Part shown: piece after piece, positions 9,205 to 44,696 of the stretch
How positions within the stretch are numbered: the first letter of the stretch is position 1
Layout: every line of letters starts with the position of its first letter
NCBI GenBank assembly: GCA_039973685.1
Contig: JBDWKL010000016.1
Location: 1-64,000, forward strand
From: Hyphomicrobiales bacterium
GTDB lineage: Bacteria; Pseudomonadota; Alphaproteobacteria; Rhizobiales; JACESI01
DNA length: 64,000 nucleotides
Direction: 5' to 3'
Translations under genes and position numbers: made by a program
The notes under the pieces: generated by a model
What the model saw: the letters and a program-made list of their open reading frames with translations, nothing else
Told to the model about the DNA's origin: nothing
Database searches by the model: none

Positions 9205-9504
9205 TTTGCTTGTCCTTCTATGCATATTCCAAATGCCGGAAACCGACCAAGGAACTGCTGTTTTTCGTGTTAAGCGTTTAGAGTAGCCACGGCATGCCCG
9301 TCTTAATCCAGATAGATCAAAAACCGCCGGGTCACTCAACGATGCGCGCTTATACGGTCTACGGCGATAAATTGCAAGCGTTTGAAGAAGATTAGCCTCA
9401 CGCAATCTCACGGTATATTTAGCAGTGTAACACTTGCCATACTATACAAGGTAAGATCATAAAGTTGCTGCACGCACTTTGTTGCGGTCGAGGGGGAATT
9501 ACGT
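9205..9504. promoter_or_regulatory. Divergent promoter region of rpmI-rplT and the SGNH-like gene
   Basis: Three hundred bases without a credible gene. It must contain the minus-strand promoter and leader of rpmI-rplT and the plus-strand promoter of the gene at 9505. I see no strong hairpin that would mark an L20-type autoregulatory leader, but I cannot fold it reliably. Confidence 0.4.
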
Positions 9505-10422
9505 TTGCTAAAAACTGCCAAAACTTTGCTTGTTTCAAGCCTTTTCACGCTCACGGCTGGCCTTTCATCTGCGCCTGCTCAGTCCTTAGCCGACCCTGAT
9601 CTTTTGATTATTGGCGATTCACAAATTTTGTTTCGTGGAGGTCCTGCTTATGTCGACCATTTCAGCAAGCTTGCTGAAACATGCAGCGCGCTGATACCAG
9701 AACGCGCGGCAGATTTTAAATCGCATTTTTCAGGTGATGTTGGCGTTGCTGGCGTTAGGGCCGCAGCGATAAATTCATGGTTGGCACGAGAAGGGGAACA
9801 CAAAGACGCACTTTGCGTACCGCAAAAAAGCTGGCCGAAGAATACCCGTGGTTTTGGGACGCTGCATACGCCAGACCAAAAGTTTCACCAAACCGCAAGG
9901 GATGGCAACTACCCACTTTGCCAACCAAATCAATCACCAGTAGAAACCCTGTTTAAAGATATTGCGATCAAACCCAAGTTGCTCGTTTTCTCAATGTTGG
10001 GTGGCTACTCTAAAAAGTGGGCAAAAGATAAAGCACTCGCCGATAAAGATGCGAGCAATCTTGCGGCTCAAATACCTAAGAACACACCTTGCCTCTATCT
10101 CACAACGGCGCCAAGTTTTGCAGAAAAACCAAATGCCGAGCGACTTGAAGGGCAAAACCATTTCTTTACCGGCATTCATAAAACGCGCGGTGCGTGTCTT
10201 CCTGTGAAAGGGCTAACTGACGAGACCATTTCCGCGTTTCAAGGCAATAACAAATTTTATAAAACCCGAGACGACGGCACGGTGCGCGATGTTTTTCATC
10301 CTAATGATTTGGGTGTCAGAACATTTTTGAACAAAGTTTCTCCCGCCATGTGTCGCGCGCTTGTCACTATCATCGACCGCAACCAAACCGCTGCGTTAAA
10401 AACCAATCAGGCAAAAAAATAA
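9505..10422 (+). CDS. Secreted SGNH/GDSL-hydrolase-like protein
   Basis: A 305-residue exported protein. Residues 1-26 form a signal peptide ending SAPAQS. Block I of the SGNH family is visible at about residues 34-39 (LLIIGDSQ, with the candidate nucleophile Ser in GDS), and the C-terminal DVFHPNDLG supplies the DxxH Asp-His pair of block V. These suggest an esterase or deacetylase acting in the periplasm or cell envelope; the substrate is not evident. The start is TTG 9505 with a GAGGGGG ribosome site about 8 bases upstream. Its stop codon overlaps the hairpin that terminates infC from the other strand. Four cysteines could form disulfides. Confidence 0.7.
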   Translation: MLKTAKTLLVSSLFTLTAGLSSAPAQSLADPDLLIIGDSQILFRGGPAYVDHFSKLAETCSALIPERAADFKSHFSGDVGVAGVRAAAINSWLAREGEHKDALCVPQKSWPKNTRGFGTLHTPDQKFHQTARDGNYPLCQPNQSPVETLFKDIAIKPKLLVFSMLGGYSKKWAKDKALADKDASNLAAQIPKNTPCLYLTTAPSFAEKPNAERLEGQNHFFTGIHKTRGACLPVKGLTDETISAFQGNNKFYKTRDDGTVRDVFHPNDLGVRTFLNKVSPAMCRALVTIIDRNQTAALKTNQAKK

Positions 10423-10452
10423 CTGGCTCTCTATTTAACAAGAGAACCAGTT
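10412..10452 (-). terminator. Rho-independent terminator after infC
   Basis: On the minus strand AACTGG/CCAGTT and TCTCT/AGAGA pair around one mismatch, followed by a run of seven T (10412-10418 on the complement). The stem also covers the stop codon of the convergent SGNH-like gene and may serve it too, though with fewer T. Confidence 0.75.
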
Positions 10453-10476
10453 ATCTAATTTCATAATGCCGATTGA

Positions 10477-11022
10477 TTATTTATTGGCAGTTGGTGCCAA
10501 CACCATAATCATTTGACGGCCTTCAAGCTTCGGCTCAAATTCGACCTTAGCGATCTCAGCAGTCTCTGCTTTGACCTTTTGAAGCAACTCCATGCCGAGT
10601 TCTTGGTGAGCCATTTCACGACCACGGAACCGCAGCGTTACTTTCACTTTGTCACCTTGACCAAAGAATTTCAAAATAGCACGCATTTTGACTTCATAGT
10701 CATGCGTGTCGATATTCGGGCGCATCTTAATTTCTTTGACGTCAACCGTCTTTTGCTTCTTGCGCGCTTCGGCAGCTTTTTTCTGCTTTTGAAATTTCAG
10801 CTTGCCGTAGTCCAGGATTTTACAGACTGGCATTCCTTGACCCGCATTGATCTCTACAAGATCAAGGCCCGCTTCCGCGGCCATATCTAGCGCGTCTTCA
10901 ATTGATGTTTCACCGACGTTTTCACCTTCGGCGTCTATCAGTTGTACGGCTGGGACACGAATGTCCCCATTGATGCGTGGTCCGTCTTTCTTAGGCTCTT
11001 GCCCTCTATGTGGTCTGCGAAT
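10477..11022 (-). CDS. infC: Translation initiation factor IF-3 (AUU start)
   Basis: IF-3 binds the 30S subunit, proofreads the start codon and prevents premature 50S joining. The C-domain ([30 protein letters not shown]) and the N-domain ([15 protein letters not shown], then [11 protein letters not shown]) are complete only if translation begins at ATT, bases 11022-11020 on the complement. That gives 181 residues, the normal length. Between there and the first in-frame ATG (10884) there is no ATG, GTG or TTG, so a conventional start would remove about 46 conserved residues. TAGGAG lies 9 bases upstream of the ATT. AUU is the start codon of infC in E. coli, where it mediates autoregulation. 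Confidence 0.93.
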
Positions 11023-11128
11023 TGTCCTGAACTCCTATAATATTATCGATAACGCTCATATATGTGCGATGCGCCAAGTTTACACCTTTTAGCGTAAAGT
11101 CAATAGAAATCCTTGAAAACGGGCCTTT

Positions 11129-44600: not shown

Positions 44601-44636
44601 TCTAACCTATTGAAATTATTGGTAGCGGGAGAGGGA
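44601..44636. repeat. Right attachment-site repeat at the tRNA 3' end
   Basis: TCTAACCTATTGAAAT (44601-44616) and TAGCGGGAGAGGGA (44623-44636) match the copy at 40065-40108. The core is the T-arm/acceptor 3' end of the tRNA gene, a standard integrase target, and reconstructs the intact tRNA. Confidence 0.75.
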
Positions 44637-44696
44637 CTTGAACCCCCGACACGCGGATTATGATTCCGCTGCTCTAACCACCTGAGCTACCCCGCC
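44620..44696 (-). tRNA. tRNA with CAT anticodon (elongator Met or Ile2)
   Basis: The 77-base minus-strand sequence folds into a complete cloverleaf: acceptor GGCGGGG with TCCCGCT, D-arm GCTC/GAGC, anticodon stem GCGGA/TCCGC with loop ATCATAA (anticodon CAT), T-arm GGGGG/CCCTC with loop TTCAAGT, and encoded CCA. There is no initiator-type 1-72 mismatch. Elongator tRNA-Met is likeliest; a lysidine-modified tRNA-Ile2 cannot be excluded by sequence alone. Its 3' end is the island attachment site. Confidence 0.93.

Follow-up and report, generated by a model that had tools for sequence, protein, structure and literature searches.

Background

Initiation of infC, the gene for IF-3, at near-cognate codons is a well-known and ordinary arrangement, and published examples of it are cited here from excerpts of the respective papers. 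An AUU start of infC is described for both E. coli and B. subtilis (PMC1805508), and an ATT in E. coli is listed along with an ATC in Streptomyces in a paper that also considers IF3 autoregulation (PMC5472188). In Xanthomonas, infC peptides map upstream of the annotated start, with ATT as the sole possible start (PMC5559785), and in S. aureus retapamulin-enriched ribosome density is found at an AUA of infC (PMC13009471). A preference of IF3 for stronger pairing at the third base of the codon is described as well (PMC10158994). For the autocontrol of E. coli infC through AUU, Butler (1987) is cited in the excerpts of both PMC5559785 and PMC5472188, and Sacerdot (1996) appears in the references of the latter; the statement of the first-pass annotation of this DNA, that AUU is the means by which IF-3 represses its own synthesis in E. 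coli, is thus a published one.

The infC gene considered here is located on the minus strand of a stretch of 64,000 nucleotides from a Hyphomicrobiales bacterium (the window), and it is almost certainly an ordinary infC, translated from a near-cognate AUU preceded by a GGAG Shine-Dalgarno element, an arrangement already known in kind. The gene of E. coli likewise possesses an AUU at the homologous N-terminus, with a Shine-Dalgarno element close upstream, and the two proteins are 53% identical (the identity to the protein of the same-genus locus L003 is 86%). The differences are in the second codon, AUU being followed by CGC here versus AAA in E. coli, and in the neighborhood: the E. coli gene starts 3 bases after thrS and adjoins rpmI and rplT, whereas infC in the window follows a frame of the glycosyltransferase family.

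The infC Frame and its Start

A complete IF-3 of 181 residues is encoded by positions 11022-10477 of the minus strand, as ATT, 180 sense codons, and a TAA stop. The initiating ATT occupies positions 11020-11022, and an in-frame TAG stop (11035-11037) is found five codons upstream, the intervening stretch reading TAG GAG TTC AGG ACA ATT, with no ATG, GTG, or TTG. The Shine-Dalgarno-like GGAG, contained within TAGGAG (11032-11035), is at the usual spacing, 9 nt before the ATT, and GGAG also precedes the ATT in the three same-genus loci (L003, L004, and L005). A typed pattern for the 16S tail carrying the anti-Shine-Dalgarno sequence of this organism had no matches in the 55-contig assembly; the 16S 3′ end may be absent from this assembly, or it may differ from the pattern typed.

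The first ordinary in-frame start codon is the ATG of residue 47 (10882-10884), followed by others at codons 64, 100, 113, and 117, and a protein started at M47 would lack 46 of the 181 residues (25%). Thus, an AUH codon is present at the homologous N-terminus and no ordinary in-frame start preserves that N-terminus. Most of this had been proposed by the first-pass annotation, which had placed the start of a full-length, 181-residue IF-3 at the ATT at 11020-11022, downstream of TAGGAG, had noted a conserved N-terminal region devoid of ATG, GTG, and TTG from 11022 to 10884, and had estimated the cost of a conventional start at a quarter of the protein; its coordinates, the length, and the estimate of a quarter all proved right.

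The run of 46 codons free of NTG is by itself only mildly unusual, its chance being about 0.01 at the NTG frequency in the rest of the gene, and so the case for the ATT start draws its weight from homology, not from the absence of NTG alone. The 181-residue protein belongs to the TIGR00168 (infC) family, scoring 231.1 bits against a curated cut-off of 60 and covering nearly the whole profile (positions 3-169 of 170). It also matches eleven distinct sequences of solved IF-3 structures, among them 1tif, a structure of the N-terminal domain, which corresponds to its residues 17-88 in the alignment.

Start Codons in Related Genomes

An alignment of infC starts in related genomes, which had been suggested as a check along with the original proposal, supports the start at the ATT. 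We searched 101 genomes of the order (the organism's own and 100 relatives), of which 98 had a match to infC, all of them read, and three (G012, G029, and G040) had none; in one of the 98 (G019) the gene is split over two contigs, and it was read at the fragment carrying the N-terminus. A start was assigned to an AUH codon (ATT, ATC, or ATA) if this was located at the aligned place or no more than two codons away. By this rule, the 98 loci, own genome included, start with ATT (55), ATC (22), ATA (19), or another codon (2), placing AUH at or near the same position in 96 of the 98. The two exceptions are L067, with an ATG two codons upstream of the homologous place, and L095, with a GTG at it, demonstrating that ordinary infC starts do occur. 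All three same-genus loci start with ATT, as does the infC of E. coli K-12, read as a control.

A second set was composed of named loci of other Hyphomicrobiales (Brucella, Rhizobium, Phyllobacterium, and Pseudovibrio, for example), representing the best 80 of the 584 relatives found. Here, the starts are ATT in 73, ATA in four, ATC in two, and other in one, amounting to AUH in 79 of the 80, and in all 73 ATT-start loci an Arg codon is next; the start region in the window shows no difference of substance from these. The single odd locus (L148, Marinicella sp. W31) has ATT CGC AGA one base off the aligned IF-3 register, a sign that this record may carry an indel close to the start. The two sets partly overlap, with L031, L080, and L146 sharing an identical start region, as do L020 and L119. 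Of the 175 loci with an AUH start, 71 have an ordinary start codon in frame farther upstream, within the open frame, and 104 lack one; there is none in the window.

Overall, initiation of this infC at AUU is well supported by these comparisons, and the apparently missing start codon is a sign of neither a truncation nor a pseudogene. A gene caller restricted to ATG, GTG, and TTG would place the start of IF-3 at M47. The near-cognate start is common to most of the relatives examined, and in E. coli it provides a handle for IF-3 homeostasis (PMC5472188, from the excerpt). By the published work on E. coli, IF-3 would destabilize 30S initiation complexes formed on near-cognate codons, and translation of its own mRNA would consequently fall when IF-3 is high and rise when it is low. 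Such autocontrol is published for the E. coli gene, and by analogy we infer it for the organism in question.

Alternative Starts

Could translation start instead at the ATG of codon 47 (10884), producing a 135-residue IF-3 devoid of part of the N-terminal domain? This codon is the first ordinary start in the frame, the shorter protein still matches TIGR00168 above the cut-off (192.6 bits, positions 37-169), and a methionine at residue 47 is shared with L003. However, such a start would forgo profile positions 3-36, which are encoded upstream, along with 30 residues of the stretch aligned to 1tif, and E. coli IF-3 has a Lys at the place of M47. While the first downstream ordinary start falls at residue 47 in 15 of the 175 AUH-start loci, across all of them it varies from residue 5 to residue 100, so that no internal start is conserved at a fixed place. 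We therefore rejected M47 on the basis of the conserved upstream residues, in spite of the methionine common to L003, and consider it highly improbable as the start of IF-3, even though a minor product from M47 might conceivably be made alongside the AUU-started protein.

Even more improbable is translation from an upstream ATG (11059), which opens a 17-codon frame overlapping the infC start in another frame and ending with TAG, and from which the infC frame would be reached by a frameshift: an in-frame stop precedes the ATT, infC itself requires no frameshift, and this ATG is missing from all three same-genus loci (an overlapping frame is opened by a TTG at -37 in L003, but not from that place in L004 or L005, the latter carrying a GTG at -8 that belongs to another frame), for which reason we rejected this reading, and with it a frameshift supplying an ordinary start, which the first-pass annotation had named as evidence that would count against the AUU.

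Start Codons across the Class and the Phylum

To the AUU-initiated infC of the window we compared a wider set of 295 loci, made up of the 98 order-level loci, the 80 named loci, E. coli, 30 and 60 class-level loci (the 60 being stretches hand-picked among the matches listed), and 26 phylum-level loci. A second, automated rule of assignment, requiring an element resembling Shine-Dalgarno, was applied to these, and 290 of the 295 starts could be assigned: ATT 145, ATA 89, ATC 52, GTG 2, and ATG 2, with some of the assignments doubtful: L067 was given an ATC located five codons into the frame, and in L227, counted as ATG, there is also an ATA preceded by GGAG. The loci left unassigned by this rule are L148, L248, L249, L266, and L270. 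The two rules agree for 96 of the 98 order-level loci and for 79 named loci, L148 being omitted by both. The start position is unlike an ordinary Ile codon, as ATA makes up 89 of the 286 AUH starts versus 176 of the 2671 Ile codons in the interior of these genes.

In the class, 192 genomes were searched, 189 had a match, and 90 loci from outside the order were read (L181-L270), with ATA in 63, ATC in 19, ATT in two, ATG in two, and four unassigned. Thus, AUU is a habit of the sample of this order, and not of the class. At the level of the phylum, a match was present in all 120 genomes; of the 30 loci taken, four were already in the set, and the 26 added start with ATT (14), ATC (8), ATA (3), or GTG (1).

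The Base Following the Start Codon

Among the 290 assigned starts, the base following the start codon is G in none of the 145 AUU starts versus 106 of the 141 AUC or AUA starts. With one genome per family, G is next in 0 of 34 AUU versus 72 of 99 AUA or AUC starts (Fisher p 3e-15, phylogeny being ignored), and by the first rule of assignment, for the order-level and the named sets, AUU is followed by G in 0 of 128. Within these genes, by comparison, G comes next after 276 of the 688 internal ATT codons.

Both the AUU start and the non-G base at +4 are clustered on the tree, which speaks against easy inference. In a tree built with FastTree from 230 AUH-start proteins of at least 150 residues, and based on one short protein only, parsimony indicates 10 changes between U and A/C in the start codon and 16 between G and non-G at +4, far below the shuffle means of 70 and 60. 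A model in which the two sites are dependent outperforms the independent one (LR 40.1, 4 df, p 4e-8), with several rates at bounds and on the same one-protein tree. Tests of dependent versus independent evolution of this type are known to overstate support when changes are few. A simulation of independent evolution was too sparse: of 20000 runs, just 32 were retained, none of these being without an AUUG tip, and the likelihood-ratio test was used in its place.

One potential explanation, which we offer tentatively and which falls a little short of the probable, is that the next base constrains the choice among AUU, AUC, and AUA. The last three bases of AUUG form UUG, an ordinary start codon shifted by one base from the frame. 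As IF-3 would favor this UUG over AUU, the latter would be excluded before G, and lineages with a G-initial second codon would use AUA or AUC. The pattern of AUU never preceding G may be new, and should be taken as a lead and not as proof. A literature search for AUUG with IF3 and the initiation codon returned one paper (PMC2176067), in the available excerpt of which AUUG refers to Shine-Dalgarno variants in a table, AUUG as a start being outside what that excerpt deals with.

Flanking Sequences and Neighborhood

A promoter-like block, TTGACTTT...AAAAGGTGTAAAC, is found on the minus strand at 11078-11103, 81 nt before the infC start. Altered copies of it are present in the same-genus loci, at 80, 122, and 72 nt from the start in L003, L004, and L005, respectively. 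The block is perhaps the infC promoter; a sigma-70 scan left it unflagged. At gathering thresholds, an Rfam scan covering the window recognized no regulatory RNA at the infC start, its sole match being a tRNA (44623-44696). Downstream of infC, a hairpin of 16 pairs followed by a T run (10417-10456, minus strand) resembles an intrinsic terminator by match to the consensus. Further downstream, an open frame on the opposite strand (9463-10422, plus strand), with no Pfam match, separates infC from the minus-strand frames for L35, L20, and PheS.
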